Part shown: positions 25,513 to 50,975 of the stretch, piece after piece
Layout: each line of letters starts with the position of its first letter
Position numbering within the stretch: position 1 is the stretch's first letter
From: Nonomuraea sp. SYSU D8015
Lineage (GTDB): Bacteria > Actinomycetota > Actinomycetes > Streptosporangiales > Streptosporangiaceae
Length of the DNA stretch: 64,000 nucleotides
Reading direction: 5' to 3'
Assembly: GCF_008065375.1 (NCBI RefSeq)
Contig: NZ_VJYI01000001.1
Span: 620,001-684,000 of the forward strand
The notes under the pieces: generated by a model
What the model was told of the DNA's origin: nothing
Databases searched by the model: none
Seen by the model: the letters and a program-made list of their open reading frames with translations, nothing else
Program-made: the position numbers and the translations under genes

Positions 25513-25785
25513 CTACTTGGCGGCGTCCTTCTCGGCCCGCCTCTTGGCCAGCTCCTCCTCAGTCATCACGAAAGATCCCAAATTCGGCACGGTGTAGATG
25601 AGATCCCGCCGCTGCAACAAGGCGATCGTCTTGTAGACGGTGTTCTTGGCGATCCCGAATTCCTGCTGCATCTGGGTGACGCTGGGGATCGGCTGCCCCG
25701 GCTGGTAGGTGCCCTTCTTGATGCGCTCCTCCAGGATGACAGCCACCTGCTCATAGCGCGTCTGATCCGGCCGAAATTCGATCAC
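25513..25785 (-). CDS. GntR-family winged-helix protein (DNA-binding domain only)
   Basis: 90 residues comprising just a GntR HTH: YEQVAVILEERIKKGTYQPGQPIPSV...EFGIAKNTVYKTIALLQRRDLI, then a charged tail (EEELAKRRAEKDAAK). It lacks an effector domain. GTG start. A 10-bp-arm palindrome 48 bases upstream (25833-25860) is a likely operator. Confidence 0.7.
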   Translation of the reverse strand: MIEFRPDQTRYEQVAVILEERIKKGTYQPGQPIPSVTQMQQEFGIAKNTVYKTIALLQRRDLIYTVPNLGSFVMTEEELAKRRAEKDAAK

Positions 25786-33599: not shown

Positions 33600-34204
33600 T
33601 CGTACCCTATTCCGCCGAATACTTCCCGGTCGGCCTCGTGGTGGTTCCTCACGATCTGCGCCCGCTCTTCAGGCGTGACGTCGAGTCCGCCGTTCTCCAG
33701 GATCCGGCGCACGTATCGGATGACGTCCTGCTCCTCATTGAACATCGCCAGGTCTACGTTGACGCCGAACGGCCCCTCCGGGAGGTGGTAGGTGATGTTG
33801 TAGTACCAGTCCTCCGGCGCGTCAGGACGGGAGATCTCAAGCTCATCGTCGCCGACGGTGAAGGTGATGGACTCGTTCGGCGTGTCCATCACGAGCACCG
33901 GACTGTAGTCCTTGAGCGCCTCCACGATGATGGCGGCGTCCTCGGGGTCCCAGGCGTTCCGGCGGACTTCGCTGACGTAGAGGCCCTTGCCCTGGTGGCC
34001 GTGGATGAGGTTCGCGTTCCGCAGGAGAGCGAGCGCATTCTTCATAGTGCTGACAGAGACGCCGTTCTTCTCCGCCATTTCCTTGATTGAGTGGAGCTGC
34101 TGCCCCGGCTCCAGGACGCCTCGGAGGATAAGGCGGCGCATGCTGTCCGCGATCTCCGTGTACGTCTGTGAAGGTCGGCTACCCTGGCTAGCTTGGTTAC
34201 CCAT
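33596..34204 (-). CDS. GntR-like winged-helix regulator with novel C-terminal domain
   Basis: 202 residues. N-terminal GntR HTH (YTEIADSMRRLILRGVLEPGQQLHSIKEMAEKNGVSVSTMKNALALL) joined to a C-terminal acidic beta domain (LVMDTPNESITFTVGDDELEISRPDAPEDW) that is not UTRA, FCD or MocR. Leads a leftward operon; a minus-strand copy of the 16-bp phage motif lies 32-50 bases upstream of its ATG. Confidence 0.68.
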   Translation of the reverse strand: MGNQASQGSRPSQTYTEIADSMRRLILRGVLEPGQQLHSIKEMAEKNGVSVSTMKNALALLRNANLIHGHQGKGLYVSEVRRNAWDPEDAAIIVEALKDYSPVLVMDTPNESITFTVGDDELEISRPDAPEDWYYNITYHLPEGPFGVNVDLAMFNEEQDVIRYVRRILENGGLDVTPEERAQIVRNHHEADREVFGGIGYE

Positions 34205-34235: not shown

Positions 34236-34254
34236 GTCTACCGGTTAGAGAAAC
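34236..34254 (-). promoter_or_regulatory. 16-bp phage motif upstream of leftward operon
   Basis: On the minus strand GTTTCTCTAACCGGTA (34239-34254), 14 of 16 matches to the consensus, oriented with transcription of the 34.2-31.75 kb operon. Confidence 0.65.
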
Positions 34255-34336
34255 GGCCCCAAGATGGCGTTGCAGTTTCTTGCACTACTCGCTTGCCGCT
34301 GGCTTGCCGCCCCTCCGGCCGCCTAGCGTGCTGGTC

Positions 34337-38476: not shown

Positions 38477-38707
38477 TCACTCTGATTCGACCCAGAAGGT
38501 GGACGAGGCTCTGCCCGTGGCGTCGTACGTCAGCTTGACGATCTGCTCCGAGTCCGGCTGACCCAGGCACAGGCCGAACTCCTCCGCCAGCAGGCCCCGG
38601 TACTCCTCGTCCGAGATTGGCTCTCTGTGCCACGTCGAGACCGTGGCTGTTCCGTCTCCGTGATCACGCAGCACCGTGATCATCGTCTGCGGGTTCCCTC
38701 TGGACAC
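38477..38707 (-). CDS. Small hypothetical protein
   Basis: 76 residues from a GTG after AAAGG (or 68 from the ATG at 38683). Beta-rich (ITVLRDHGDGTATVSTWHREP, VKLTYDATGRASSTFWVE) with an acidic helix between. No family recognised. Confidence 0.5.
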   Translation of the reverse strand: MSRGNPQTMITVLRDHGDGTATVSTWHREPISDEEYRGLLAEEFGLCLGQPDSEQIVKLTYDATGRASSTFWVESE

Positions 38708-39442
38708 GGGTTCGACCTTTCGCCGAATTAGCCCTAATTAATTGCTAATTAGCTCGAAGCGAATTAAATCTATTGCACGTGCAATTAAGGGACTGGCTCC
38801 TCGCGGTGTTAGGCGCACAGCAAGGAGCCAGCCGATGCTCCATCCTGCCAGCTCGACCAGCTCGACGGTCACCGAATCCCCGCAATTCCCCCGATTCGCC
38901 GCTTGTGACGTTACGTTAGCTAGCAGGTGCCGCACGTACAGGCCACTGTCTTCACTCTCTGTACTCCCGCCGCGTGGCTGGTCGGGCCGCTAGGAGGGAC
39001 CCGCAAGATCATTTAAGGGTGGGGGGTGCCTGTCAAGCGCGAGCGGCTGTCACAGCGCGTTCTAGACCTGTTGCAGAACGCTAGAGAGACTTGTGAGAAT
39101 GGCACTACTCACACATAGGACGTGACCAGGCACGATGTCACACAGTGATTTCTATACCATACGTGTCAAGCTCACGCTGTGTATCTAGACCAATCTCGGG
39201 GAAGCCCTACCGGCCACTGTCAGGAAATGATCTTCGGAGTCTGACAGTGCTGCCCGACCAACGGGAAACGGGAACGAATCCCCACTACTCTGGTTGGTTA
39301 ACTGACAGCTATGTAAGGACATAAGCACAAAAGCGCTTGCAAGCCGCTTGCTCCAGCAATCACGGAATGCGCTTATATAAGTCAATTCGCATAGTTCCGA
39401 CGGCGCGCGTGGCGCGCACGGAACGGGGGCACGCCGGGAAAT

Positions 39443-39608
39443 CCATAGATGCCTCTATGCGTCTCTGTAGTACATCTAGGAGGCTCTATGGGCCTTGTTT
39501 GGTAGTCATTCCCCGAGCCCGATTTTCTCGCCTCTATGGTGCCTTGTAGGCCCGTAAATTCGTTCTCGGAAACCTATTGACTCTCTACTCGGATCGAGTA
39601 GTCTATGG
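39443..39608 (+). repeat. TCTATG iteron-like repeats
   Basis: CATAGATGCCTCTATG (39443-39458, inverted pair) then GGCTCTATGG (39482-), GCCTCTATGG (39530-) and AGTCTATGG (39600-). Five TCTATG units in 165 bases, spaced about 32-70 apart. Confidence 0.45.
39577..39606 (+). promoter_or_regulatory. Promoter candidate with embedded palindromic operator
   Basis: TTGACT (-35) at 39577-39582 and AGTCTA/GTCTAT (-10) at 39600-39606 with 17-18 bp spacing. The spacer is filled by the perfect palindrome CTACTCG-GAT-CGAGTAG (39585-39601), so a bound repressor would block RNA polymerase. ATCGAGTAG recurs in the hairpin at 51362-51402. Confidence 0.6.
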
Positions 39609-40189
39609 ATTGTTCGGCCAGCGGGAACGGCCGGACCGGTCGCCCCACGAGCCACGATCCCCGCAAGGGATACGGGCACGGAAGCGGGTATGAGGGCCGA
39701 CAATTGCATATGACTATGAGCGTGGAGAGGGCTTGCCCTTCCGTGCCCCGACTTTTCCAGGATGCTCGCGTTTCAGCCTGCGCATTGCGCGGCGCGCTTG
39801 AGCGGTCGGTGACACGCACGGACGGCAAGGGTCTAGCTAGGTCTTATTTAGTCATGCGCGGGAGTCGGTCAGATTCTTGAGTATTCAATAGTGGATTTGG
39901 GAGCACTGGACTTGTACCAATGCCCTGATGTGCCTATCTCGCAGTGTGGCAAGCGCACTGTGAGACTTGCGCGATGATCTCTCGCCGAGATACGCGGACC
40001 GTTGTCTCGCCCCGAAAATTTGGGCTGGTTGACCGGGAGCCGCTGGGTCAAGTTGTGGGAGCGTAGGCACATGTGGTTAGCCACCACGAAGGGAGCGCGT
40101 AAGCGCACGTCGCAAGCCGTAAGTAGGTCTTGGACCGGTGCCCCGGCGCGGACAGCAACGCACGAACCTTATTCACCGCGCCACACGCT

Positions 40190-40216
40190 AGAGATTGGCC
40201 TAGCGAACCAATCTCT
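40190..40216 (+). terminator. Terminator closing the control region
   Basis: Perfect 9-bp arms AGAGATTGG and CCAATCTCT, nine-base loop, followed by TTGTGTGTTCT. Because no gene lies upstream, it implies a non-coding transcript from the control region or an attenuator before the rightward operon. Confidence 0.62.
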
Positions 40217-40288
40217 TGTGTGTTCTCTGTACGGGCAGACGCGCGTACCGGGAATATGCACAAAGGCGAATCGTAGAGAGGTAAGAGA

Positions 40289-40468
40289 ATGATCACTCTC
40301 GAATACAACCCGTTCGCGAAGCAATTCGACGTCAAGCGGGATGGCGAATACATCGGTTTGATAGAGGAGAACCACGAGACTTACCGGGCGCGTAAGATCG
40401 GCTCAAGTTTCGCGAACACAACACAGAGCATGTGTGACGCAATCGACTTCATCACTGAGGGGAAGTAG
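40289..40468 (+). CDS. 59-residue phage protein, first gene of rightward operon
   Basis: ATG after AGAGAGGTAAGAGA. Sequence MITLEYNPFAKQFDVKRDGE... is compact alpha/beta with YRARKIGSSFANTTQSMCDAIDF. No family recognised. First of about 37 genes read rightward to 56.5 kb. Confidence 0.58.
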   Translation: MITLEYNPFAKQFDVKRDGEYIGLIEENHETYRARKIGSSFANTTQSMCDAIDFITEGK

Positions 40469-40476
40469 GTAGAGGC

Positions 40477-40620
40477 ATGGCAGACAACATCGCTCGGCAA
40501 GCGCTTATCAATCGGGCGCGGAAGAACAACCACTACTTGCGGCGCGGGCTCATCTCATGGGCGGATTGGGCCGAAGAGGTGCGCCATATCCAGGCGTACG
40601 CATGGCACGTGGTCGGCTAG
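40477..40620 (+). CDS. 47-residue basic protein
   Basis: ATG eight bases after the previous stop, preceded by GTAGAGG. Basic helix (ARQALINRARKNNHYLRRGLI) then a Trp-rich end (SWADWAEEVRHIQAYAWHVVG). A hammerhead ribozyme starts three bases after its stop. Confidence 0.52.
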   Translation: MADNIARQALINRARKNNHYLRRGLISWADWAEEVRHIQAYAWHVVG

Positions 40621-40623
40621 TGA

Positions 40624-40695
40624 TGGCGAAACGCTCGTCTCCCTAACCGGGAACGTGCGTCGTGCGTAGTTGGTCACTGCGCACCTGATGAGCCA
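40624..40695 (+). ncRNA. Type II hammerhead ribozyme 1
   Basis: Order: stem II 3' strand TGGC (40624-40627), GAAA (40628-40631), stem III CGCTCGT...ACGTGCG (40632-40659, one U-U mismatch, apical CTAACCGG), U-C (40660-40661), stem I GTGCGTAGT/ACTGCGCAC (40662-40684), CTGATGA (40685-40691), stem II 5' strand GCCA (40692-40695). All invariant core bases are present, with the canonical G10.1-C11.1 pair. Predicted cleavage between 40661 and 40662. It lies between two genes and carries one copy of the 16-bp phage motif (40637-40652). Confidence 0.88.
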
Positions 40696-40737
40696 AACCC
40701 AGCTCACAGCACCAACACACAGAAAGGCGGTAGACCC

Positions 40738-40971
40738 ATGGCACAGGGACACATGGCGAACGTGCGGGCCGACGGGTACATGGCGCTCGTGATCGGAGCC
40801 GCGTTTTCGGACGGCTGGCATGTGGAGCAGACGGAAGAGGCTACCTACATCTTCACCAGAGGTGACGAGACGGTCACACTGCCGTTCGTGGAGAACATGC
40901 GCGACGCGTTCGATGTCCTGCACTTCGCCGAGCGCTACGGGCTCATGAGCAAGATCACTGGCAAGCGCTGA
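40738..40971 (+). CDS. Small phage protein
   Basis: 77 residues, start-associated motif ACACACAGAAAGGCGGTAG directly upstream. Pattern GYMALVIGAAFSDGWHVEQTEE...YIFTRGDETVTLPF suggests a small alpha/beta fold. Function unknown. Confidence 0.6.
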   Translation: MAQGHMANVRADGYMALVIGAAFSDGWHVEQTEEATYIFTRGDETVTLPFVENMRDAFDVLHFAERYGLMSKITGKR

Positions 40972-40993
40972 CCTTACTTCCGTGTTTCCCTAT

Positions 40994-41028
40994 GTGCTAG
41001 CGTCTACCAAACCGGGAGGCGCTAGCAC
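40994..41028 (+). promoter_or_regulatory. Intercistronic hairpin with 16-bp motif in the loop
   Basis: GTGCTAGCGTCT and AGGCGCTAGCAC form 12 pairs (one G-U); the loop is ACCAAACCGGG. The motif GTCTACCAAACCGGGA spans 41002-41017. A second small hairpin GCCC/GGGC follows at about 41039-41052. Confidence 0.72.
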
Positions 41029-41088
41029 ACAGCTCACACGCCCTCACCAGGGCATCTCTGTGCCCACACCCCAGAAAGGCGGCAAATC

Positions 41089-41403
41089 ATGGTCTCGTTC
41101 CTTCCGGATGGCGCGTACGACCGCGACCGTACCCAGACTCCCTACACGTGCCGAATCTGCGGAAAGGATAGCTGGGTATACAACCCAACCAACCCGAGCA
41201 TGTTCCGGAGCACGCCGACGGCACACAGCTCATGTGAGAACGCGATCGGCTACACCAACGCTGACATGCGGCGTGCCACGCTGGCGGGCGATGAGCTGGG
41301 CGCGTTGCACCACTACGGCCGGTACCTCCGTGCATGCGCTGGTAACCCGGATCCCGACTCATGGGACCTGCCGTCGCTCCAGCAGTATCCCCACATTCGC
41401 TAG
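41089..41403 (+). CDS. Phage protein with CxxC zinc motif
   Basis: 104 residues; ATG preceded by CCAGAAAGGCGG. Contains TCRICGKDSW and a later SSCENA, possible zinc ribbon; C-terminal half helical. Its TAG stop is part of the next hammerhead. Confidence 0.58.
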   Translation: MVSFLPDGAYDRDRTQTPYTCRICGKDSWVYNPTNPSMFRSTPTAHSSCENAIGYTNADMRRATLAGDELGALHHYGRYLRACAGNPDPDSWDLPSLQQYPHIR

Positions 41404-41472
41404 GCGAAACGTGCGTCTACCTAACCGGGACGCGCGTCATGCCGGGATTGGTTACCCGGCGTCTGACGAGCC
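41403..41472 (+). ncRNA. Type II hammerhead ribozyme 2
   Basis: GGC (41403-41405; the first G is the last base of the upstream stop), GAAA (41406-41409), stem III CGTGCGTC/GACGCGCG (41410-41436, eight pairs), U-C (41437-41438), stem I ATGCCGGG/CCCGGCGT (41439-41462, eight pairs, loop ATTGGTTA), CTGACGA (41463-41469), GCC (41470-41472). All core bases match. Predicted cleavage between 41438 and 41439. Stem I and III sequences differ from ribozymes 1 and 3 while pairing is kept. Confidence 0.92.
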
Positions 41473-41521
41473 AGACCGCGCACGGCAGAACCCCAACCAT
41501 CACACAGAAAGAGGGACACCT

Positions 41522-42667
41522 ATGTCTCGCGAGTCCATGACCTGGCTGAACACTCAGACTCTCATCGGCTTCGCCGCGAAGCGTGGGAAGGCGTGGCACT
41601 ACCGGTCGGAGGAGCAGGGCGCGGAGTCGAACCACTACGACGGCGCTATCCCGCTGGAGGACGTCAAGCGGCGGCTGTTCCACTGGGAGCCGCTGGAGAT
41701 GCCCATTTTCACCATCATCCCCGCACAGATCACGGCGGACGGCGTCCAGCCTGCCCGCATCGTGCGCTTCAAGGACCGTAAGTCCATCCTTCGCTCTGAC
41801 GAGATGGAGACGGTCGGTATCGACGTCGCCCACATCAGCGCGCTTGCGGCTAACCCGCATGTGGAGCTGGAAGACCTGGCGGACAAGGGCGTCCTTGCTG
41901 GCTTGGACGGCAACGCGCTGGGTGTGTTCATGGACAGCTACCAGCCGCACCCGTACGCGCAATGGCTGCTCATGAACGTTGAGCGCATCCTTGACGGCAA
42001 CCTCTCCATCGGCTCGGCCGGTCTGCTCAAGGGCGGAGCCCAGGCTTGGGTGTCCGTCGAAGTTCCCGAGAACATCAAGACGCCGGAAGGTGTGGACTTC
42101 CGCCCGAATCTGCTGGCCACCACGAGCTTTGACGGCTCGCTCGCCACCACATACAAGAACGTGGTCACGGTGGTTGTCTGTGACAACACGCATGCGGTTG
42201 CCATGCGAGAGAAGGGGCAGGCGTTCAAGGTTCGGCACAGTTCCAAGAGTCTGAACAAGATTCAGGACGCGCGGGCCGCGCTGAACATCGTCTACGACAC
42301 GGCCGACGCGTTCCAGCAGGAGGTTAAGCGGCTGTGCGAGACAACGGTCACTGACAAGCAGTGGGCCGCGTTCATGAATGAGCTGGTGCCCGTTCCGACC
42401 GACCCGAAGAAGAAGCAGGGCATCACCATGGCGGAGAACAAGCGCGCCGAGTACGCCCAGCTCTGGAACTGGGATGAGCGTGTCAGCCCGTGGAAGAACA
42501 CCGCATGGGGCGTTCTCCAGGCGGTCAACACCTACGACCACCACAAGGGCATCGTGAAGGGTGCCACGCGGGCCGAGCGCAACATGTCCAAGATGGTCAA
42601 GAACCACTTTGAAACCCTGCGTACCGACACGCTGGACACGCTGAACAAGGTTCTCGCGACGGTGTAG
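41522..42667 (+). CDS. DUF932 phage/plasmid-like protein
   Basis: 381 residues; ATG after CACACAGAAAGAGGG. Matches the DUF932 family found in phages and plasmids: N-terminal AWHYR..., central AWVSVEVPENIKTPEGVDFRP and VVVCDNTHAVAMREKGQAFKVRHSS, and a C-terminal NKRAEYAQLWNWDERVSPWKNTAWGVLQAVNTYDHH block. Largest gene of the operon. Biochemical role unknown; possibly DNA binding or repair. Confidence 0.82.
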   Translation: MSRESMTWLNTQTLIGFAAKRGKAWHYRSEEQGAESNHYDGAIPLEDVKRRLFHWEPLEMPIFTIIPAQITADGVQPARIVRFKDRKSILRSDEMETVGIDVAHISALAANPHVELEDLADKGVLAGLDGNALGVFMDSYQPHPYAQWLLMNVERILDGNLSIGSAGLLKGGAQAWVSVEVPENIKTPEGVDFRPNLLATTSFDGSLATTYKNVVTVVVCDNTHAVAMREKGQAFKVRHSSKSLNKIQDARAALNIVYDTADAFQQEVKRLCETTVTDKQWAAFMNELVPVPTDPKKKQGITMAENKRAEYAQLWNWDERVSPWKNTAWGVLQAVNTYDHHKGIVKGATRAERNMSKMVKNHFETLRTDTLDTLNKVLATV

Positions 42668-42675
42668 GCCGCTCA

Positions 42676-42708
42676 TGGGAGCGTCTCTCTAACCGGGAGA
42701 TGCTCCCA
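42676..42708 (+). promoter_or_regulatory. Intercistronic hairpin with 16-bp motif in the loop
   Basis: TGGGAGCGTCTC and GAGATGCTCCCA, 12 pairs, loop TCTAACCGG; motif GTCTCTCTAACCGGGA at 42683-42698. Lies nine bases after the DUF932 stop and could also act as a terminator, though no U-run follows. Confidence 0.72.
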
Positions 42709-42712
42709 CCCC

Positions 42713-42800
42713 TTCCCCGATTTCTAGGCGAGCTAGGGGGACGCACGGGCCGCGTGTCCGTGCCTCCCTCAGTTCGATGTGACGTCGGACTCCCCACACA
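42713..42800 (+). ncRNA. Intercistronic structured cassette, family 2 (copy 1)
   Basis: About 75-85% similar to the cassette at 44490-44575. Hairpin a: GGGACGCACGG/CCGTGCCTCCC (one mismatch); hairpin b: AGTTCGA/TCGGACT with loop TGTGACG. Shared TTTCTAGGCG start and CCCCACAC end. Ends in the start-associated motif. Confidence 0.5.
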
Positions 42801-42816
42801 GAAAGGCGGTAGATCC

Positions 42817-43107
42817 GTGCTGCTCAACAAGCTCCGCACGTCCGATGCGGTCGCTAAGTTCCTCCGGCAGGCCGGTTGTCTGGGTGTGCAGATGGACAGT
42901 AGGACATGCCCGGTCGCGCAGTACATGCGGCGGTGCTATCCGCAGGCAAAGAACATCTCTGTCGGATTGCGTTTCTCGCACATCAACCTCCGTTCTGGTC
43001 TGCTCGTGATCAGGCACTCAGATGCGGTCAAGCTGTTCGTTGAGAGTTTCGACAGCGGGTATTACCACGACCTGATTAGCAAGCGTAACGACGCCGACCA
43101 GCGTTAG
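42817..43107 (+). CDS. Hypothetical phage protein
   Basis: 96 residues from a GTG after CACACAGAAAGGCGGTAG. Three Cys in the first half (AGCLGV, TCPVAQYMRRC). Mixed alpha/beta; no family recognised. Confidence 0.57.
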   Translation: MLLNKLRTSDAVAKFLRQAGCLGVQMDSRTCPVAQYMRRCYPQAKNISVGLRFSHINLRSGLLVIRHSDAVKLFVESFDSGYYHDLISKRNDADQR

Positions 43108-43109
43108 CC

Positions 43110-43358
43110 ATGCCTGCATATCCGCTCGGATTCATAGAGGCGCTCTCTGATGACTCGCCCGAAATCCGAGAGGATGCGGCGCGCTGCATCATCGAAGAAC
43201 GCGAGGTAGAGCTAGCGGGCCTTCAAGCACGCCTAGCAGTCGCGAACACCGCAACCCGACGCCGGAATCTCCAGACGCGTCGCAAAGCCCTTAGAAACAA
43301 CATCAGCGCTTGGCAGGCGTACATAGATGACGGCTGCCCGCGCTACGCACCTTCATAG
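43110..43358 (+). CDS. Small coiled-coil protein
   Basis: 82 residues, two bases after the previous stop, no start-associated motif (coupled translation). Helical, with REVELAGLQARLAVANTATRRR giving a short coiled coil. Confidence 0.55.
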   Translation: MPAYPLGFIEALSDDSPEIREDAARCIIEEREVELAGLQARLAVANTATRRRNLQTRRKALRNNISAWQAYIDDGCPRYAPS

Positions 43359-43366
43359 GAGTGAGT

Positions 43367-43660
43367 GTGTCTGAGATCCACGAGAGCACGCCCGAGCAGC
43401 CTGTTTATCTGCGGTTCCTGGTCGGCCGAATGGAGTTGCTGCATCAGGTCACCATTCCGAGCGACAACGCGGGCCGCGTGGAAATGGCGCTGGTTGTTCT
43501 GCGACGGGAGCACGACACCACGCCTTACATCGTGTGCTACGTCAGCGAGCATTCCGCGAAGTTCGGGGAGTGGTTTGAAGGTTTCTACACCTCCGATCAC
43601 GTCACCGCATACGTGGAAATGGCGCGACGGGCAAAGCTCTACGGCATCGAAGTCAAGTAG
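43367..43660 (+). CDS. Hypothetical phage protein
   Basis: 97 residues from the GTG at 43367, seven bases after AGGAG (GTG at 43361 also possible). Beta-rich (YLRFLVGRMELLHQVTIPSDNAGRVEMALVVLRRE). Hammerhead 3 begins at the last base of its stop codon. Confidence 0.56.
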   Translation: MSEIHESTPEQPVYLRFLVGRMELLHQVTIPSDNAGRVEMALVVLRREHDTTPYIVCYVSEHSAKFGEWFEGFYTSDHVTAYVEMARRAKLYGIEVK

Positions 43661-43720
43661 GCGAAACGCGCGCTACGGCGCGTGTCGTGTCGGGAGTCGT
43701 TACCCGATGCCTGATGAGCC
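43660..43720 (+). ncRNA. Type II hammerhead ribozyme 3
   Basis: GGC (43660-43662), GAAA (43663-43666), stem III CGCGCGC/GCGCGTG with tetraloop TACG (43667-43684), U-C (43685-43686), stem I GTGTCGGG/CCCGATGC with loop AGTCGTTA (43687-43710), CTGATGA (43711-43717), GCC (43718-43720). All invariant bases present. Predicted cleavage between 43686 and 43687. It lacks the 16-bp motif in stem III, showing that the motif is an optional insert. The start-associated motif follows at 43724. Confidence 0.92.
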
Positions 43721-43744
43721 AGACCACACAGAAAGGCGGGAGAA

Positions 43745-44263
43745 ATGGCACCTCGCATTGACAAGAACCTGGTGATCGTTCTGGACCACACGCGATTTCA
43801 GGGGTTCGGTCACATCTACGCCAAGCCGTTCGTAGAGAACAACGGGTTCGAGCCGACCGGTAAGGGTGATCTCCTAGCCCCCGGACTTGGTAGCCGGTGG
43901 GGCTGGGAGCGTAATTACAACTGGCTGCGTGATCTCCGAACGTCAGCGCAATACACCATTGGGCACGCGGACGGAGGCTTGTACGGCTACGACATCCACT
44001 ATTCACAGCCGTTCAGTGTCCAGCTCTACCAGGCGGAGGCGATGGTTAAGGCACTCCGCAAGATCCATCGAGAGATGGACAAGCTGAAGAGCACTCACGG
44101 CTACCCCGATTCCTATGGGGAGTACGTCGCGCACTTCGCTATAGCTATCGGCTGCAACCGCTTCGCCACCTGGCAGAACGGCACGCGTAGCTACATGTGG
44201 ATGAACACAGCCGAGATGCGTACTTGGGTGGAAGGCGTCTTTCGCGAGGCGGTGGCGGCCTGA
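43745..44263 (+). CDS. Hypothetical phage protein
   Basis: 172 residues after CCACACAGAAAGGCGGG. Aromatic-rich (GWERNYNWLRDLRTSAQYTIGHADGGLYGYDIHYSQPF) with a C-terminal helix pair. No family recognised. Confidence 0.6.
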   Translation: MAPRIDKNLVIVLDHTRFQGFGHIYAKPFVENNGFEPTGKGDLLAPGLGSRWGWERNYNWLRDLRTSAQYTIGHADGGLYGYDIHYSQPFSVQLYQAEAMVKALRKIHREMDKLKSTHGYPDSYGEYVAHFAIAIGCNRFATWQNGTRSYMWMNTAEMRTWVEGVFREAVAA

Positions 44264-44264
44264 C

Positions 44265-44498
44265 ATGGAAGACGTACGCGAGGCTGACAGGCCCATGGTG
44301 GGCATTGTGGCCTGGTCCAATCAGGTCTGTGTCTACCGTCTCCCCGATTACGCCGATTGTTTCCAGTCGATTGCCGTTCTCTGGGGTGAATACCTCTCGG
44401 GAACGGTAGTGCTGGAAGTGACGCCGGACGCATGGGAAGCCGAGCGAGACGAGCTGCTTTCCGCGCCGGATATCACGGTAGCGACCTTCGGTTTCTAG
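44265..44498 (+). CDS. Small hypothetical protein
   Basis: 77 residues, one base after the previous stop; acidic alpha/beta. Its stop TAG begins the second family-2 structured cassette. Confidence 0.55.
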   Translation: MEDVREADRPMVGIVAWSNQVCVYRLPDYADCFQSIAVLWGEYLSGTVVLEVTPDAWEAERDELLSAPDITVATFGF

Positions 44499-44575
44499 GC
44501 GGTCTAGGGGGATGCGCGGACACGCGCCGCGCGTCCCTCAGTCCGATGTGACTCCGGACTATTCCCCACTGCTAG
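44490..44575 (+). ncRNA. Intercistronic structured cassette, family 2 (copy 2)
   Basis: Homologue of 42713-42800. Hairpin a: GGGATGCGCGG/CCGCGCGTCCC, 11 pairs; hairpin b: AGTCCG/CGGACT with loop ATGTGACTC. Several base changes relative to copy 1 are compensatory, which supports a functional RNA fold. Confidence 0.52.
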
Positions 44576-44579
44576 AAAA

Positions 44580-44672
44580 CCGTGCGTCTCTCAAACCGGG
44601 AGGCGTGCGGCGCAACGCCCAAAGGATGAGCCGTGACACCTATTCCCCTCCCGGTTTCTGACGAGACGCACG
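44580..44672 (+). promoter_or_regulatory. Nested inverted repeat around a start codon, with 16-bp motif
   Basis: Inner hairpin CCGTGCGTCTC/GAGGCGTGCGG (44580-44610) with motif GTCTCTCAAACCGGGA at 44586-44601. The same arm can instead pair with CCTCCCGGTTT...GAGACGCACG inside the next gene (44647-44672), enclosing that gene's ribosome binding site and GTG. The two folds are mutually exclusive, as in an attenuator or translational switch. Confidence 0.6.
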
Positions 44673-45217
44673 AGCGTTTCGTGGCCAACATCATCTACAC
44701 GTACGGCCACGCGACACAGGACCAGTGGGAGCGCGGTAAGACCTGGTATCACCAGGCTAACCAGCTCGCCGCGATGATCTCGGGTGGCGACGTAGTGACC
44801 GGTGCAGGCGTCATCGCTGCCCTGTCGAGTAACAAGCGGTGGAGCGATAACACGAAGCTGGCTGCTCGCGCGTTCCTGCGTGGCGAACCGTCGGGGCACG
44901 TCGGTGATGCCCTGACGAAAGCGGCTCGGATCATGGCGGGCGAGCGGCCTACTGATGTTCTCCCCATGTCCAGCAAAACGGGCCAGTTCTTTCTGTGCAT
45001 CGCCAATCCGGCCGATCCTCAGGCGGTCTGTGTGGACCGGCACGCGCACGACGTAGCCGTTGGCGTGAGGTACGGCAGCGAGAATCGCGGCCTTAGCTCT
45101 AAGGCGCGCTACCAGGCCATCGCGGACGCGTACAGAGATGCCGCGCGGCGGCTTGATGTCCTTCCCCTGACGGTTCAAGCCGTCTGCTGGGTTGTCCAGA
45201 TCGAAAGCAGCAACTAA
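44633..45217 (+). CDS. Phage protein with HhH-GPD-like DNA glycosylase pattern
   Basis: 194 residues from a GTG after AAAGGATGAG. Pattern: WYHQANQLAAMIS...GVIAALSSNKRWSDN, LTKAARIM, SSKTGQFFLCIANP, and VDRHAHDVAVG. The last resembles the VDxHVxRV catalytic-Asp segment of helix-hairpin-helix base-excision glycosylases. The assignment is from motif memory; a role in removing or sensing modified bases would fit the DpdA-like genes of this phage. Confidence 0.5.
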   Translation: MTPIPLPVSDETHERFVANIIYTYGHATQDQWERGKTWYHQANQLAAMISGGDVVTGAGVIAALSSNKRWSDNTKLAARAFLRGEPSGHVGDALTKAARIMAGERPTDVLPMSSKTGQFFLCIANPADPQAVCVDRHAHDVAVGVRYGSENRGLSSKARYQAIADAYRDAARRLDVLPLTVQAVCWVVQIESSN

Positions 45218-45235
45218 CACAGAAAGGCGGAAGTT

Positions 45236-45805
45236 ATGTCCACAGAGTTTCTGACCATGGCTCGCGACGTGGCCCGTGAAATGGGCGGCTGGGATGTGCG
45301 GGGCGGTCCCTGGCCGAATCAGTTCTACATCTACGACGGCGACCAAAAGCTGTGCCTGACGTTCGACGACCTTGACGACACAGGCCGGGTCAACATCAGC
45401 ACCAGCTACCCGGAACGGTCGGGCGAGGTATACGGCGTGAGGCAGTACAACATCGGCGTGTCCTTCAAGCGCGGGGCGGCGGTGATCGCCCGCGAGATCA
45501 AGCGGCGGCTTCTGCCTAACTACCTGGCGGAGTTGGAGCGCGTGAAAAAGGAAATCGCCGAATTCGTAGAGGCGGAGCGCCGACAGGTGGCCAACGCTAA
45601 GGCGATAGCTGGCGCTCTCGGCGTGGAGTGTGCGGCGGTTGTTCACCCCTCCGGCATCTACGTGCGTACCGGATACAGCGGCGACTACCAGGACGTTGGT
45701 CGCCCCGAATTCCGCGTGTTGGGAAGCGGAAATGTTGAAATCAAGATCCATGCGCGGGCCGACGTCGCGCTGAAGCTCGCCGAATTCATGGCGACAATCA
45801 AGTAA
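45236..45805 (+). CDS. Hypothetical phage protein
   Basis: 189 residues after AACACAGAAAGGCGG. N-terminal beta domain (WDVRGGPWPNQFYIYDGDQKLCLTFDD), central long helix (LAELERVKKEIAEFVEAERRQVANAKAIAGAL) and a small C-terminal domain. No family recognised. Confidence 0.6.
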   Translation: MSTEFLTMARDVAREMGGWDVRGGPWPNQFYIYDGDQKLCLTFDDLDDTGRVNISTSYPERSGEVYGVRQYNIGVSFKRGAAVIAREIKRRLLPNYLAELERVKKEIAEFVEAERRQVANAKAIAGALGVECAAVVHPSGIYVRTGYSGDYQDVGRPEFRVLGSGNVEIKIHARADVALKLAEFMATIK

Positions 45806-45895
45806 CAACGGTCGCGAGCGCTTCTGGCATCGCCCGGATTTCCGGGCGGTGTCAGTGGCACGGCGAACGTGTCAGCCACACACAGAAAGGCGGTA
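45806..45895 (+). ncRNA. Intercistronic hairpins and start-associated motif
   Basis: CTGGCATCGCCCGG pairs with CCGGGCGGTGTCAG (about 45825-45856, 14 pairs, loop ATTT), followed by GGCACG/CGTGTC and then CACACACAGAAAGGCGGTA. Structure unlike the hammerheads. Confidence 0.42.
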
Positions 45896-46240
45896 ATGAT
45901 GAAGCTGCTCAGTCTGTTCAAGCGCACGCCGCGCTACATCGTCGAGATCGCGCACGACGAGCTTTATGCCACATGCCTTAACCCCGACTGCCCGATGGAC
46001 CTGGAGCAGATCAAGCTCCTAGACAACGGGGATGAGGCGGCCTATCACATCGCGGTCTATCAGGTGTGCCCCGATGGCCACGGTAGCGAGTGCCCGCATG
46101 CCAATTTGATCGCCGACACCACCTGTATCGCGGACTACGGCCTTCCTACGGGGCGATACAGCACCCCGGACGACATCGGCGGATCTGACTATCTACGCGA
46201 TGTCGCTAGCGGCATCTGGCCTGGAAAGGTGGCGGCGTAA
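45896..46240 (+). CDS. Phage protein with Cys-rich segment
   Basis: 114 residues; ATG (followed by a second ATG) after the start-associated motif. Contains CLNPDCPMD, CPDGHGSECPH: possible zinc site. Overlaps the next gene by one base. Confidence 0.58.
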   Translation: MMKLLSLFKRTPRYIVEIAHDELYATCLNPDCPMDLEQIKLLDNGDEAAYHIAVYQVCPDGHGSECPHANLIADTTCIADYGLPTGRYSTPDDIGGSDYLRDVASGIWPGKVAA

Positions 46241-46491
46241 TGAATGAGCGGTCGCGACTCTGCGTGCCCATCGAGCGGGAGATTTACCGGCTGCTGCTGG
46301 AGCGCGTCCCGAACAATGCAGACCGGCTCCCCACGTTCGAGACCATCAACGATATGGACGAGCAGGTAGCCCATGCGGCTATGAACTGCATAGAGAACTA
46401 TCTGGCGGACAACGGAAGCCTGTGGCACTTCACCAGGCGGAGGCGCGTACGCGAGTGGGCCGAGAACACCCTTAAGCGATTCGGTCTCTAA
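46240..46491 (+). CDS. Small helical protein
   Basis: 83 residues, ATG overlapping the previous TAA. Helical with basic C-terminus (FTRRRRVREWAENTLKRFGL). Unknown function. Confidence 0.56.
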   Translation: MNERSRLCVPIEREIYRLLLERVPNNADRLPTFETINDMDEQVAHAAMNCIENYLADNGSLWHFTRRRRVREWAENTLKRFGL

Positions 46492-46507
46492 GAGAAAGGC
46501 GGATGTA

Positions 46508-46771
46508 ATGAACGTTGCCCAAATCATCTGGTCTATGTCGCGGAGCCTCTCCCGATATGAGAATGCCCGCACGATCCTCGGAGAGACGTACGCGAAGCTC
46601 AGCCGTACCGATGTGCCCCCGCTAGACAGCGCACGGGAAGCGCTCGCGTACGTGACAGACCACATCGGTTATGCACCCGGTCAGTCGCCAGACACCACGC
46701 TCAATGACGCGGTGGCTGTGCTGTCCATGTACGTGGCGATTCTCACTTTGGCCGACAAGTACGAGAGCTAA
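46508..46771 (+). CDS. Small helical protein
   Basis: 87 residues after AGAGAAAGGCGG. Helical bundle pattern (IIWSMSRSLSRYENARTILGETYAKL). Unknown function. Confidence 0.56.
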   Translation: MNVAQIIWSMSRSLSRYENARTILGETYAKLSRTDVPPLDSAREALAYVTDHIGYAPGQSPDTTLNDAVAVLSMYVAILTLADKYES

Positions 46772-46787
46772 GGGAAAGGCGGAAGTA

Positions 46788-47090
46788 ATGGCACGCAAGG
46801 TAAAGCCGATGTGGACTCTCGTGCAGCACAGCGCTTATGGATGGGACCGCAAGGAGGGGTTCCGGCACATGGTAGAGACCAGGTCTGTTCTCGATCGTGT
46901 CCAGCAGCGGGAGATTGAGCGCCTGGGCGGCCTGCTCTTCGAGAGCTACACCGACGCCGATGAGGCGGAGTACCGGGAGAACTACCCCGAAGGTGCCGAT
47001 CTCCTCGCCGGGAAGGTACGCGGCACCTTCGCCGAGTACAACCTTGACGGACTGAAGCTCTACATTCCCGCGAAAGACGACACGGCCTAA
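46788..47090 (+). CDS. Hypothetical phage protein
   Basis: 100 residues after AGGGAAAGGCGG. Contains ESYTDADEAEYRENYPEGADLLAGKVRGTF. Its TAA is followed directly by a structured cassette. Confidence 0.56.
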   Translation: MARKVKPMWTLVQHSAYGWDRKEGFRHMVETRSVLDRVQQREIERLGGLLFESYTDADEAEYRENYPEGADLLAGKVRGTFAEYNLDGLKLYIPAKDDTA

Positions 47091-47168
47091 CGGGTCCTCT
47101 GGTCACCATGCCTGCCCCGAATTCTGCGGTGGGCATGGGCGGCTGGGGCGTCCGCTAGGGCGATCACA
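47091..47168 (+). ncRNA. Intercistronic structured cassette, family 1 (copy 1)
   Basis: Homologous to 49010-49087. Opens CGGGTCCTCT right after the stop; closing stem TGGTC/GATCA; hairpin CCATGCCTGCC/GGTGGGCATGG; hairpin GCGG-CTGGGGCGT-CCGC; then CACACAGAAAGGCGG. A three-way junction. Confidence 0.5.
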
Positions 47169-47182
47169 CAGAAAGGCGGGAG

Positions 47183-47440
47183 ATGGGAAAGCACCGCAAG
47201 ACCAGCATGCCGAATCCGACCAGCAACGTGGCCAACGAGCACGGCGCGATGCTGGCGAGGTTCGGAACGACGGCACCCGAGGCCGAAACTCTCCTCCGTT
47301 TCGGCTCTTTGGTCCTGTCCAACATCGCTACTGGCTTCGCTCCTGATCGGGCAACGGCGGCGGCGCTGCGCTCCTTCAGCGATCCGGAAAACGTGGTCGA
47401 ACTGGGGGCGTCGGTCTGGGAACGCATCGAAACCGAATAA
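47183..47440 (+). CDS. Hypothetical phage protein
   Basis: 85 residues after CACACAGAAAGGCGGGAG. Basic N-terminus (MGKHRKTSMPNPTS) then helices. Unknown function. Confidence 0.56.
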   Translation: MGKHRKTSMPNPTSNVANEHGAMLARFGTTAPEAETLLRFGSLVLSNIATGFAPDRATAAALRSFSDPENVVELGASVWERIETE

Positions 47441-47460
47441 CACAGAAAGGCGGTAGAACA

Positions 47461-47841
47461 ATGCGAGACGTTCACCTGGAATTCCGGGACAGCGTCGGCT
47501 GGTGCGGGACGGCACCAGAGGATGAGAACAAGATCACGGATGACCGGCAGCTCGCCACTTGCGACGACTGCCGTACGGCATGGGAGAACTTCGACGCCTC
47601 CCACGATGCCGAGCTGCCGGAGGACTACGACGGGTCCGAGCCGGAGCTACTGGCCAAGATGCGCAGGATCCAGGCCGGTGTGGCGGGCCGCATCGGAAAC
47701 ACCCTGATCGACATGCAGAGCGCGAACCTCTGGGTGCAGGCATACGAGAAGGGCAACGACAACACCAAGGCCAAGCTACTGGAGATGGATCCGGGAACGG
47801 CGTGCCTTGCGCTCTGGCGCATTGTTGGGCGGTCGAAGTGA
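47461..47841 (+). CDS. Phage protein with CxxC motif
   Basis: 126 residues after AACACAGAAAGGCGGTAG. N-terminal GWCGT...ATCDDCRTAW may bind zinc; C-terminal helices. Overlaps the next gene by four bases. Confidence 0.57.
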   Translation: MRDVHLEFRDSVGWCGTAPEDENKITDDRQLATCDDCRTAWENFDASHDAELPEDYDGSEPELLAKMRRIQAGVAGRIGNTLIDMQSANLWVQAYEKGNDNTKAKLLEMDPGTACLALWRIVGRSK

Positions 47842-48014
47842 CCGCCCTTGAGATTGCTGCTCGGGCCGCGTTCTACGCCCGGCAGCGAGAGGCACAGGCG
47901 GTCGTGACGGACCTGAGTCGGCGGGAGCGCGCGGCGCGGCGCTCGGGTGACCGGGCGCACGTACGAGCCATCCGGCGCGAGGTGCGGCGCATCCGCTCCG
48001 AGGCATCGGCCTAA
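47838..48014 (+). CDS. 58-residue Arg-rich helical protein
   Basis: GTG start in a GTGA overlap. Single amphipathic basic helix (ARQREAQAVVTDLSRRERAARR...RAIRREVRRIRSEA), probably nucleic-acid binding. Confidence 0.55.
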   Translation: MTALEIAARAAFYARQREAQAVVTDLSRRERAARRSGDRAHVRAIRREVRRIRSEASA

Positions 48015-48040
48015 ACACCACACACAGAAAGGCGGTAGTA

Positions 48041-49009
48041 ATGGCAGAGATCGAACAGCGGGAGATCCTCCTCCCCGAAGGCAATGTGTTCGTGTCCATC
48101 GAAGAGGCTCGGGGTGAGCGCGGGGAGCTGCCCACGTTGCGCGTGGCGACGTCAACCCACACAGGCACCGACGCCGTAGAGACCACGGTCAAGATCAAGG
48201 CGCACGAGTACACCTTCCTCATGCGGGTCATGCACGGGACGAAGAAAACGTGGTTGTACTCCCGCCAGGAGTGGCAGGAGGAGCACGGATGGCACACGGC
48301 AGACAACGAGCACATTCGAACGGCGGGCGGTAACGAGCTGGGCCGGTACTCTCCTACCGGCGAGCGGCTGGCCAACGTCGCCGTCATCGCAGCACAGGAG
48401 TACGAGAAGCTCGTACCTGACTGGCGCGTGCGCAGCAAGATCGCGGCCATGCACAAGGCCATGAGAGCCGATTGGCACAGCTACTACCTGAACACGCGCG
48501 AGGCGGTAGGGCTGCGGCTGCACTGCGCGGAGTTGGAAGAGGGTATTCGCGCGCTGCTGCCTGACCTCACTGAGGACCTGCCTCTGCCCGATTTCGCTCT
48601 CGACCTCAACCAGCCCCACTTCCGCGAGATCTACGGCGAACACGAGTGGTGGCACACAGAGGGCGACGTCTACGGAAACCCCGGCATGTGGCACGTGCCT
48701 GGCTGCCCGGTGACGTGGCGGGCCGGTGCGGTCCGCAAGGAAACCGCGCCCATCATGCGACTCCTGGTGAAGGGCGGCGCGCTGTGCGGCTGCGTGCCTG
48801 ACAAGACCACGGCTGTGGAGATGCCCGACGGCAGCCTGCGATGGCGGCCAAGCGGCCTGGCCTGGCACCGCTGGGCGGTGGTTGAGAAGGTCGCCGAGGA
48901 GTCACGGCTGGTGAGCTGGCACCTGACAGAGGACGACGTCATAGCCGCTGTCGGGCGAAGCCAGAACCCCACGGCGTGGGCCGCTCGCGCATACCTCACG
49001 CAGCCCTAG
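48041..49009 (+). CDS. Large hypothetical phage protein
   Basis: 322 residues after CACACACAGAAAGGCGGTAG. Segments: YTFLMRVMHGTKKTWLYSRQEWQEE, a helical middle, EHEWWHTEGDVYGNPGMWHVPGCPVTW with clustered His/Trp/Cys, and LRWRPSGLAWHRWAVV. No family recognised. Confidence 0.6.
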   Translation: MAEIEQREILLPEGNVFVSIEEARGERGELPTLRVATSTHTGTDAVETTVKIKAHEYTFLMRVMHGTKKTWLYSRQEWQEEHGWHTADNEHIRTAGGNELGRYSPTGERLANVAVIAAQEYEKLVPDWRVRSKIAAMHKAMRADWHSYYLNTREAVGLRLHCAELEEGIRALLPDLTEDLPLPDFALDLNQPHFREIYGEHEWWHTEGDVYGNPGMWHVPGCPVTWRAGAVRKETAPIMRLLVKGGALCGCVPDKTTAVEMPDGSLRWRPSGLAWHRWAVVEKVAEESRLVSWHLTEDDVIAAVGRSQNPTAWAARAYLTQP

Positions 49010-49087
49010 CGGGTCCTCTGATCACCGCGCGTCTACCTAACCGGGACAGGCGCGCGGCCGGTCGGGGCGTCCGCTCGGGCGATCACC
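49010..49087 (+). ncRNA. Intercistronic structured cassette, family 1 (copy 2), with 16-bp motif
   Basis: Closing stem TGATC/GATCA, hairpin CCGCGCGTCT/AGGCGCGCGG (49025-49057) and a CGG/CCG hairpin with loop TCGGGGCGT. Compared with copy 1 the middle hairpin has a wholly different sequence but still pairs, and its loop holds the motif GTCTACCTAACCGGGA (49031-49046). Confidence 0.55.
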
Positions 49088-49116
49088 AACACACAGAGAA
49101 AGGCGGTAGATCCGTC

Positions 49117-49386
49117 ATGCCCAAAGTCCTGATCTTCCCTTACCAGCGTCCCCAGAGCCGAGTTCCCGACGTGCGCGGCCTGGGCTGGGTGGCCCGTCGC
49201 GCCCTCATGATGCGGGCGTCATTCAAGCTGGAACGCCTGGAGAAGGGCACGAGCATCCTCATCGGCCAGACCTTCGACGGCGACGAGCGGACCAAGCTCA
49301 AGGCGCAGCTCCAGCAGATCAAGGCGGATCTCCGCGCTATCCGGAAGTACGCCAGCGATGGTTTCCCGGCTATCCGGGAGGTCTGA
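49117..49386 (+). CDS. Small basic phage protein
   Basis: 89 residues after ACACACAGAGAAAGGCGGTAG. Basic helices (RALMMRASFKLERLEKG, KLKAQLQQIKADLRAIRKYA). Directly precedes and is coupled to the DpdA-like gene. Confidence 0.58.
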   Translation: MPKVLIFPYQRPQSRVPDVRGLGWVARRALMMRASFKLERLEKGTSILIGQTFDGDERTKLKAQLQQIKADLRAIRKYASDGFPAIREV

Positions 49387-50160
49387 GTGCTCGCCCGATT
49401 TTTCTGCGGTGCCCCTGAGCTGAGCTGGGCAGAAGAGCACGGCGACATAGGGCCGTTGTTCATCAGCTTCAACCGCATTTCCCGGTTAAAGTTTCGGCCG
49501 ATCATCATCACCACGGATTTCGCTATCGACTCAGGCGGCTTCACACAGCTTTCCAAGGGCGGTTGGCCTGATGGCTGCGAAGAGCCCTACATCGCCGCGA
49601 TTCGCAGGCTCAAGCGGCACATCTGGAAGGGTGCGCAGCACCTTCAGTGGATTGCCCCGCAAGACTGGATGTGCGAGGAAGAGCAGCTAGCCAACACCGG
49701 CCTTACGGTGCTCGAACACCAGCAGCGCACCGTACAGAACTTCGTTCGCCTCACCGAACTTGCCCCCGATCTTCCATGGGCCATGGCGGTGCAGGGCACG
49801 AAACCGTCTGAGTATCTCCGCATTCTCGACATGTACGCGGATGCGGGAGTGGATCCCCACGCGCAGAAGATCGTCGGTGTCGGTTCGATCTGTCGTATTC
49901 AGCACACAGACCTGGCCGTAGAGATCATCGAGTCCTTGCACAATGCCGGGCTGCGGAAGCTGCACGGATTCGGGCTGAAGACTGAGGGGCTCGCAAAGGT
50001 CGGGCACCTTCTTACCTCCGCCGATTCGATGGCCTGGAGTGAGCACGCCCGGAAACAAAAGATCCGTCTCGACGGGTGTCCACACAAGCGGTGCGTCTCT
50101 TGCCCGAAGTACGCCAAGCAATGGCGGAACAGGCTCATCCAGCGCGGCCTAGCCGCTTAA
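49387..50160 (+). CDS. dpdA: DpdA-like tRNA-guanine transglycosylase-family DNA modification protein
   Basis: 257 residues from a GTG adjoining the previous stop, with CGGGAGGTCT upstream. Shows the TGT-superfamily motif AIDSGGFTQLSKGGW (DSGGF at 48-52), a second active-site candidate in IAPQDWMCEE, VGVGSICR, KLHGFGLKTEGLA and a closing Cys cluster (DGCPHKRCVSCPKY) for zinc. In phages with DpdA, guanine in DNA is exchanged for a 7-deazaguanine that blocks restriction enzymes. No preQ0 synthesis genes (folE, queC, queD, queE) are seen in this window, so the base would come from the host or from genes further right. Confidence 0.75.
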   Translation: MLARFFCGAPELSWAEEHGDIGPLFISFNRISRLKFRPIIITTDFAIDSGGFTQLSKGGWPDGCEEPYIAAIRRLKRHIWKGAQHLQWIAPQDWMCEEEQLANTGLTVLEHQQRTVQNFVRLTELAPDLPWAMAVQGTKPSEYLRILDMYADAGVDPHAQKIVGVGSICRIQHTDLAVEIIESLHNAGLRKLHGFGLKTEGLAKVGHLLTSADSMAWSEHARKQKIRLDGCPHKRCVSCPKYAKQWRNRLIQRGLAA

Positions 50161-50178
50161 CACAGAAAGGGGAAAGAA

Positions 50179-50424
50179 ATGACGGATCTCAAAGCCTGGC
50201 ATATGAACGTGCCGGAGCTGGGCGCGTGGAACGAGGTCGCGACCGGTGCATGGCAGCTACACAACTTCGGCAAGCAGCTCGACGACATCGCCTTTCAGGT
50301 GCTCAAGCAGGCGCGGCACTACCCGAAAGCCGCTGAGCAGGTGATCACTGGGCTGAACGAGCAGATTGCCCACCTGGTCAAGCTTCGTGACGACCTGACC
50401 GCGTTCAACCAGAACCAGCGCTAG
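50179..50424 (+). CDS. Small helical protein
   Basis: 81 residues after CACAGAAAGGGGAAAG. Helical (LDDIAFQVLKQARHYPKAAEQVI). Unknown function. Confidence 0.56.
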   Translation: MTDLKAWHMNVPELGAWNEVATGAWQLHNFGKQLDDIAFQVLKQARHYPKAAEQVITGLNEQIAHLVKLRDDLTAFNQNQR

Positions 50425-50456
50425 CCCCTACCCAATCACACAGAAAGAGGGAAGTA

Positions 50457-50975
50457 ATGCCCTTCGACAACCCCTCCCTTCTCGTCACCTTCGTTGGTGA
50501 GGGTGAGCACCGGCACGAAGAGCTGGAGTTCGACCTGCTTGACGTCGAGCTGGCGGAGCTGCAAGACGAGATCCGGAAGGCCATTGGGCCGTGCTACACG
50601 ATCGAGACGGACGACGACGACTGGGAAGGCGTTGCCGTCGCAGAGGCGGCGTCGGCGCACGACCTGTGGCAGCTCGCCCGGACGGCTCACAAGCTGGACT
50701 ATTCGGAGGCGTTCTTGGCCTGGGTGGCGCACGTCCGGCCCTACAGCATCCGCAGCCTAAACCTGGAGGAGGCGGTTGAGGATTTCGGCAAGGAGTTCGT
50801 CGGAGCTTTCGAGAACTTCGAGGCGTACGGGCGTGACTCGCTGGCGGATGAGATCTTGCGCTTCCCGGCGCTGGATACGTTCTTCGACTTCGAGGGGTAC
50901 GGCGAATGGCTGGCTTCCGACTACACATCGGTTGACCTGAACGCGGGCGGCTTCGCGCTGTTCAGGAAGGTCTGA
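50457..50975 (+). CDS. ArdA-like antirestriction protein
   Basis: 172 residues, strongly acidic. The C-terminal domain (AFENFEAYGRDSLADEILRF..., FFDFEGYGEWLASDYTSVDLNAGGFALFR) follows ArdA-type DNA mimics, and the middle has YTIETDDDDWEG and HDLWQLARTAHKL. ArdA proteins imitate B-form DNA and block type I restriction enzymes. Similar length to known members. It sits two genes from the DpdA-like gene, giving the phage two anti-restriction strategies. Confidence 0.66.
   Translation: MPFDNPSLLVTFVGEGEHRHEELEFDLLDVELAELQDEIRKAIGPCYTIETDDDDWEGVAVAEAASAHDLWQLARTAHKLDYSEAFLAWVAHVRPYSIRSLNLEEAVEDFGKEFVGAFENFEAYGRDSLADEILRFPALDTFFDFEGYGEWLASDYTSVDLNAGGFALFRKV

Follow-up and report, generated by a model that had tools for sequence, protein, structure and literature searches.

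Three type II hammerhead ribozymes between early genes of a Nonomuraea prophage, placed at the stop codons of upstream cistrons

We analysed a 64-kb stretch of the genome of Nonomuraea sp. SYSU D8015 (contig NZ_VJYI01000001.1, positions 620,001 to 684,000; hereafter the window, whose own coordinates are used throughout), in which an earlier note had placed three type II hammerhead ribozymes between genes of one phage operon. We confirmed that the short RNAs at these three sites are type II hammerhead ribozymes by sequence, fold, position and family, and that each is complete. The covariance model, the context and the relatives in other phages support their identity, their setting between genes of one operon and the predicted effect, which is cutting of the polycistronic mRNA between cistrons. 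The three elements are as follows.

40624-40695, plus strand: type II hammerhead 1; GAAA at 40628, C17 at 40661, CUGAUGA at 40685; predicted cut 40661/40662
41403-41472, plus strand: type II hammerhead 2; GAAA at 41406, C17 at 41438, CUGACGA at 41463; predicted cut 41438/41439
43660-43720, plus strand: type II hammerhead 3; GAAA at 43663, C17 at 43686, CUGAUGA at 43711; predicted cut 43686/43687

The invariant core that had been claimed was found in all three elements, namely GAAA, CUGANGA and the residues that we take to be U16.1, C17 and the C11.1/G10.1 pair. C17 is followed by a paired base in each element, and its positions match the cleavage sites predicted earlier from the sequence. Loops close stems I and III and stem II is open in all three, which is the type II layout. 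Stems II, III and I contain 4, 4 and 9 pairs in hammerhead 1, 3, 10 and 8 in hammerhead 2, and 3, 8 and 8 in hammerhead 3, where UACG closes stem III. A scan of both strands of the 64 kb for the core with stems of at least 2 (II), 4 (III) and 4 (I) pairs returned exactly these three elements, and the same scan found none in 300 order-1 Markov sequences.

The whole window was also searched against Rfam release 15 at an expectation value (E) of at most 1. We found four matches, three of them to RF02276 (Hammerhead_II; gathering score 37 bits). Hammerhead 3 was matched at 43659-43728 (42.8 bits, E 2.1e-5), hammerhead 2 at 41402-41480 (37.1 bits, E 6.6e-4) and hammerhead 1 at 40624-40698 (27.9 bits, E 0.17). 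Thus the covariance-model check that had been proposed recovered every element, but only two of them reached the gathering score. The fourth match, to IRES_n-myc, was well under its own gathering score (18 versus 40).

The array is intercistronic, with several hammerheads lying in the sense of the genes between cistrons of a phage operon as judged with PHROGs and Pfam. The open reading frames (ORFs) on either side of each element are listed here.

40477-40620, plus strand: 47-codon ORF, upstream of hammerhead 1
40738-40971, plus strand: 77-codon ORF, downstream of hammerhead 1
41089-41403, plus strand: 104-codon ORF, upstream of hammerhead 2
41522-42667, plus strand: DUF932 gene (Pfam PF06067, phrog_1221), downstream of hammerhead 2
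43361-43660, plus strand: 99-codon ORF, upstream of hammerhead 3
43745-44263, plus strand: 172-codon ORF, downstream of hammerhead 3

The placement relative to the upstream stop codon agreed with the earlier description of two elements beginning on the last stop base and one three bases after it. The offsets are +3, -1 and -1 for hammerheads 1, 2 and 3, and the first base of hammerheads 2 and 3 is the final base of the upstream TAG. We found the same placement in a pooled set of 218 distinct elements, many of them related, taken from listed IMG/VR loci, six Streptomyces phages (both described below) and the window. Random positions on the same strand, treated alike, served as the control, and an ORF was any frame open for at least 30 codons. 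An ORF stop lay within 5 nucleotides (nt) of the 5' end of 138 of the 218 elements, compared with 1081 of 10900 random positions (9.9%). An offset of -1, at which stem II begins with the last base of the stop codon, occurred in 30 of 218 elements versus 88 of 10900 random positions. An upstream stop (-60 to +10) together with a downstream ORF start carrying a ribosome-binding-like stretch accompanied 177 of 218 elements and 984 of 4360 random positions. Placement at the upstream stop codon is therefore general among the pooled elements, and the regularity is sharp, most of them beginning at the stop or no more than 5 nt from it. Complementarity of at least 4 pairs between loop I and the 3' tail was present in 135/218, against fractions of 0.35 after the tails were shuffled and 0.38 after partners were swapped. 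Stem III loops had four bases in 126 of the pooled elements, UUCG (20) and GCAA (15) being the commonest.

We consider it very probable that the three are working hammerheads which cut the polycistronic early mRNA after C17 and so give shorter mRNAs; cleavage itself, protection of the ends and coupling to ribosomes are parts of this account that we infer. Each element sits between cistrons, the 5' strand of its stem II overlapping the upstream stop codon or lying no more than 3 nt from it. A cut after C17 would leave the upstream mRNA ending in stem III with a single-base 3' overhang, and the downstream mRNA beginning flush with stem I at a 5'-hydroxyl (5'-OH). Hammerhead cleavage leaves a 2',3'-cyclic phosphate on the upstream product. 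Since both stems I and III carry loops in the type II layout, both cut ends would carry hairpins, a simple physical idea by which this layout would fit operons. The likely outcome would be shorter mRNAs capped by hairpins at their ends, whose lifetimes could be tuned separately. While a ribosome terminates at the overlapping stop, it would occupy the GGC-GAAA strand, and cleavage may then wait until its release. Alternatively, simple compactness could explain the overlap of stop codon and stem II.

Several observations weigh against this account. The score of hammerhead 1 lies under the gathering score, and its stem III contains a U-U mismatch. When 8-15 nt of flank were included, the hammerhead stayed the minimum fold in element 1 only, and elements 2 and 3 favoured other folds. 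In isolation the hammerhead was the minimum-energy fold of elements 1 and 2 and lay 1.4 kcal/mol above the minimum in element 3. The contact between loop I and the 3' tail could form 5 pairs in element 2 but just 3 in each of elements 1 and 3. Two steps of the account are indirect: that hairpin ends would stabilise the mRNAs, and that a ribosome at the stop would block folding, as the overlap with stem II suggests. Finally, relatives that share the DUF932 gene lacked the array. None of five actinophage records and not the single IMG/VR record of this kind contained a hammerhead at E ≤ 0.001, and therefore the position is not conserved with the DUF932 gene. DUF932 was accordingly dropped as a hammerhead companion, none being present in the Rhodococcus and Microbacterium records searched. 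The stretches around related genes of five congeners and of a second contig of the same genome also contained no hammerhead.

Some of these observations could reflect decaying ribozyme copies, spread by recombination between intergenic repeats, of which at least one is inactive and which keep no processing role. A 52-nt stretch is 79% alike between elements 2 and 3; these two are therefore not independent and probably share an origin, as judged from that likeness. Moreover, the first 28 nt of hammerhead 1 show 71% likeness to a hairpin at 44574-44601 that no hammerhead surrounds, and decay would also fit the low score and stem III mismatch of hammerhead 1. However, all three elements retain an intact core although stem I has diverged, which is not expected from drift alone. 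The covariation claimed earlier held for stem I, where 5 of 8 pairs were changed on both sides with pairing kept, and was weak for stem III (1 of 8). We regard decay as improbable, and cutting by working hammerheads remains the reading that we prefer.

Relatives of the array were sought in IMG/VR with the pattern GGCGAAAC, a gap of 33-62 and CTGATGAGCC, which occurred in at least 120 loci; since these were chosen by the pattern, they give no measure of frequency among phages. The stem-checking scan found 207 hammerheads (190 distinct) in 102 of the 120 listed loci, with up to nine per locus and a single element in 61 of the 102. No hammerhead arose when the first 80 listed loci were each simulated three times with a Markov model. 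One of the listed loci was Streptomyces phage Hank144. We found that Hank144 and five other Arquatrovirinae phages carry 54 elements in their whole genomes at RF02276 E ≤ 0.001, that is 8 in Hank144, 9 in R4, 9 in Pablito, 8 in Amethyst, 9 in Spernnie and 11 in Alvy. Every one of the 54 maps to the minus strand, within about 40.4-51.6 kb, and the neighbouring annotated genes share that strand. In the fetched regions of the six phages 47 elements exceeded the Rfam gathering score, and 47/47 were type II.

These named phages thus carry 8-11 hammerheads each, and the fetched annotation tables of all six contain no RNA annotation for them. Ten of the 47 elements fall inside annotated genes, several of which are very short ORFs or gene starts. 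This suggests misplaced start codons or short ORFs that are spurious, and we flag the gene calls that overlap hammerheads as doubtful.

A second link between the prophage and these phages is a DUF7178 gene. The copies in Spernnie, Alvy and Amethyst share 53-55% identity with the prophage gene; the fetched regions of Hank144, R4 and Pablito gave no DUF7178 match at E ≤ 1e-10. A hammerhead ended within 50 nt upstream of the DUF7178 match in 12 of 14 fetched loci. Of the remaining two, one had a hammerhead 311 nt away and the other, with a partial match at the end of the locus, had none. Eleven of these 14 loci had been chosen for the hammerhead pattern; Spernnie, Alvy and Amethyst were reached through the DUF7178 search, and the hammerhead is present in each of them. 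The corresponding site of the prophage, before its DUF7178 gene, is occupied by a motif hairpin instead of a hammerhead.

Searches of bacterial genomes returned little beyond the array. Four further weak RF02276 sites in the host genome (E ≤ 10, at most 25.8 bits) were set aside as noise, as 10 of 14 control genomes also match. Under stricter filters, which lose weak matches, none of the other 53 congener genomes matched RF02276 at E ≤ 0.01, and among 396 genomes of the phylum two matched at E ≤ 0.001, the own genome and one weak match (29.3 bits). A search of 17 records with RF00008 (type III) gave no matches and is uninformative, as its control matched nothing either.

The motif hairpin just mentioned contains a 17-bp sequence, CGTYTNYCWAACCGGGA, that is also present in two of the ribozymes. 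We found 12 exact copies in the 12.4-Mb host genome, all in the prophage region (37.3-98.9 kb, window coordinates continued rightwards), and a reversed-pattern control found none in that genome. The copies are as follows.

40636-40652, plus strand: within stem III of hammerhead 1
41414-41430, plus strand: within stem III of hammerhead 2
41001-41017, plus strand: free-standing intercistronic hairpin; 41-nt fold of -24.9 kcal/mol
42682-42698, plus strand: free-standing intercistronic hairpin; 41-nt fold of -25.7 kcal/mol
44585-44601, plus strand: hairpin preceding the DUF7178 gene
49030-49046, plus strand: free-standing hairpin 3' of the ORF at 48041-49009
37315 and 63619 (window) and 70507, 84817, 87851 and 98871 (continued coordinates), minus strand: six further copies

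The hairpin loop of stem III in hammerheads 1 and 2 belongs to this motif, and hammerhead 3 has no copy of it. All 12 copies are oriented along local transcription, as judged from ORFs and third-position GC, which give rough gene calls outside the early operon. The six plus-strand copies lie in gaps of the early operon, fold at -16.6 to -25.7 kcal/mol, and have the loop CUAACC in four cases and CAAACC in two. The six minus-strand copies, among leftward genes, fold at -4.7 to -19.8 kcal/mol, four of them more weakly than every early copy; by the same rough calls two lie in gaps and four inside ORFs, so that the totals are 8/12 in gaps and 4/12 inside ORFs. Of the other 215 distinct elements in the pool, not one had a CWAACC loop on stem III. 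A repeated prophage motif within hammerhead stem III looks new.

The earlier note had the hammerheads serving as regular units between cistrons, and this did not hold. The gaps at 40972-41088, 42668-42816 and 44499-44632 and the one after 49009 contain a motif hairpin without a hammerhead. The hairpins might thus be chiefly DNA or RNA control sites, such as repressor roadblocks or processing hairpins, with the hammerhead core a minor passenger, and the placing of stem III of elements 1 and 2 on a motif found 12 times and oriented with transcription fits such a view, as do the four early gaps. We judge it very improbable, because element 3 has no motif and all three elements keep the full catalytic core. 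The copies inside ORFs argue for the motif being a putative DNA site rather than an RNA element, and a pure RNA role is made less likely by those copies together with the weaker folds of four of the six non-early ones.

A combined role for hammerheads 1 and 2 is conceivable, although we consider it unlikely. The same 17 bp would act in DNA as a stoperator-like site for a phage protein that controls elongation and in RNA as the apical half of stem III. One cassette would then serve both silencing in the lysogen and mRNA cutting in the lytic cycle, gated by the ribosome at the overlapping stop.

Four more sites match the motif with one mismatch, namely 24793-24809, 24808-24824, 34239-34255 and one on another contig. 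The first two form an inverted repeat at 24793-24824, left of the IMG/VR contig described below; a GntR-type gene lies at 25513-25785. Another GntR-type gene lies at 33596-34204, with the near-copy 34239-34255 just upstream. At 44592-44654 the motif-hairpin stretch AAACCGGGAGG shows perfect 11-nt complementarity to CCTCCCGGTTT, which lies just after the GTG start of the DUF7178 gene; an alternative stem could therefore enclose the ribosome-binding site and the start codon. The idea that the motif hairpin represents a widespread family of RNAs was rejected, since its 18-nt form occurred in 51 scattered stretches of 257 Gb of genomes, which is chance level (about 100 expected by our own estimate). 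Nine viral stretches contained the 18-nt form, two of them from this prophage.

The wider region is, by its genes, a contractile-tailed prophage of about 90 kb. An IMG/VR viral contig of 90,284 bp has a fetched part of 13,143 bp whose sequence is the same as that of the window from 35522 onwards, and RF02276 at E ≤ 0.001 found these three elements and no further ones on the whole contig. In window coordinates continued rightwards, the region includes genes for a tail sheath, a large terminase and a DnaB-type helicase (PHROGs and Pfam) and, at about 124.1-125.3 kb, a gene of the phage integrase family, and it is from these genes that the assignment follows. They read leftwards; the early genes read rightwards from about 40.3 kb, and the hammerheads lie in the early-gene sense. 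A sigma-70 promoter and terminator scan of 38500-45300 found sites no more numerous than in shuffles.

Other features were seen around the early operon. About 1.6 kb preceding it (38710-40288) has no convincing gene and may contain the early promoter and control sites. The rightward region includes a queuine tRNA-ribosyltransferase family gene (49387-50160; phrog_1279) and an ArdA antirestriction gene (50457-50975; PF07275). A structured stretch of about 75 nt is present in two copies (42718-42791 and 44489-44560) whose repeated parts are 84-85% alike, with the layout TTTCTAGGCG..CTAGGGGGA.. followed by a hairpin with an ATGTGAC loop. Neither copy had an Rfam match at E ≤ 1, and when both were tried against other loci only one matched elsewhere, in two short matches (23-24 nt). 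This repeat might be another structured RNA. A start-associated repeat like ACACAGAAAGGCGGTAG precedes several early genes within 40713-50461, and another repeat near gene starts (47137-47167 and 49056-49086) is 87% alike over 31 nt.

The stop-codon rule, the phage arrays and the hairpin-end idea can all be addressed by RNA-end mapping in ordinary phage infections. Our literature searches, which covered titles and the starts of abstracts, met neither the stop-codon rule nor a repeated prophage motif in stem III, and found nothing on hammerhead arrays of R4-type Streptomyces phages, although the supplementary data of PMC3088659 may contain such arrays.

Clustered hammerheads around prophage genes were described in 2011. 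PMC3088659 reports the type II form with a contact between loop I and the 3' tail, in the majority of at least 4 pairs, and cleavage of three clustered arrays in vitro and of one in E. coli; it describes the exact biological roles of hammerheads in bacteria as unclear. A passage of a 2017 review (PMC6155905) likewise describes hammerheads close together and flanking ORFs of small proteins. Thus the view in the earlier note that such a set between phage genes would be unusual does not stand, the more so as we found further arrays. One possibility named for clustered hammerheads in PMC3088659 is that neighbours cleave and re-ligate, here giving circular or spliced RNAs rather than separate mRNAs; such products were sought there and none was detected, and we assign this outcome hardly any probability.

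Like the arrays of PMC3088659, such as the triple array around ardA of Agrobacterium tumefaciens, the present one has several hammerheads between genes of a prophage and the type II form with its loop I/3' tail contact, and in both cases the hammerheads are proposed to cut long transcripts of the phage into mRNAs the length of an operon or a gene. The likeness to the ardA array is partial, as the ArdA-family gene of this prophage does not adjoin a hammerhead. In contrast, here all three elements are type II, they are placed at stop codons and two build stem III on a repeated motif; the words "stop codon" do not occur in the main text of PMC3088659.

The motif itself resembles two known sites. 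Stoperators of mycobacteriophage L5 and its relatives, as described in passages of PMC9283540, are short asymmetric 13-mer repeats at promoters and in short intergenic gaps, oriented with transcription. The prophage motif is likewise repeated, asymmetric and oriented with transcription in 12/12 copies, but it is 17 bp long, 4 of its 12 copies lie inside ORFs and it is a candidate site only. The boxB hairpin of phi21 has a CUAACC hexaloop (PDB 1NYB; passages of PMC12550061), the same as in four of the six early motif hairpins. It differs from the CAAACC of the other two, and four of the six non-early copies fold more weakly than any early one.

Like this prophage, the Arquatrovirinae phages R4, Hank144, Pablito, Amethyst, Spernnie and Alvy have arrays on the gene strand, with 8-11 elements per genome and, among the Rfam gathering hits of their fetched regions, type II hammerheads only; three of the six share the DUF7178 gene. 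They differ in lacking the CWAACC stem III loop of prophage elements 1 and 2. The prophage has a tail sheath. The arrangement is known from other phages, and the present array adds one case.

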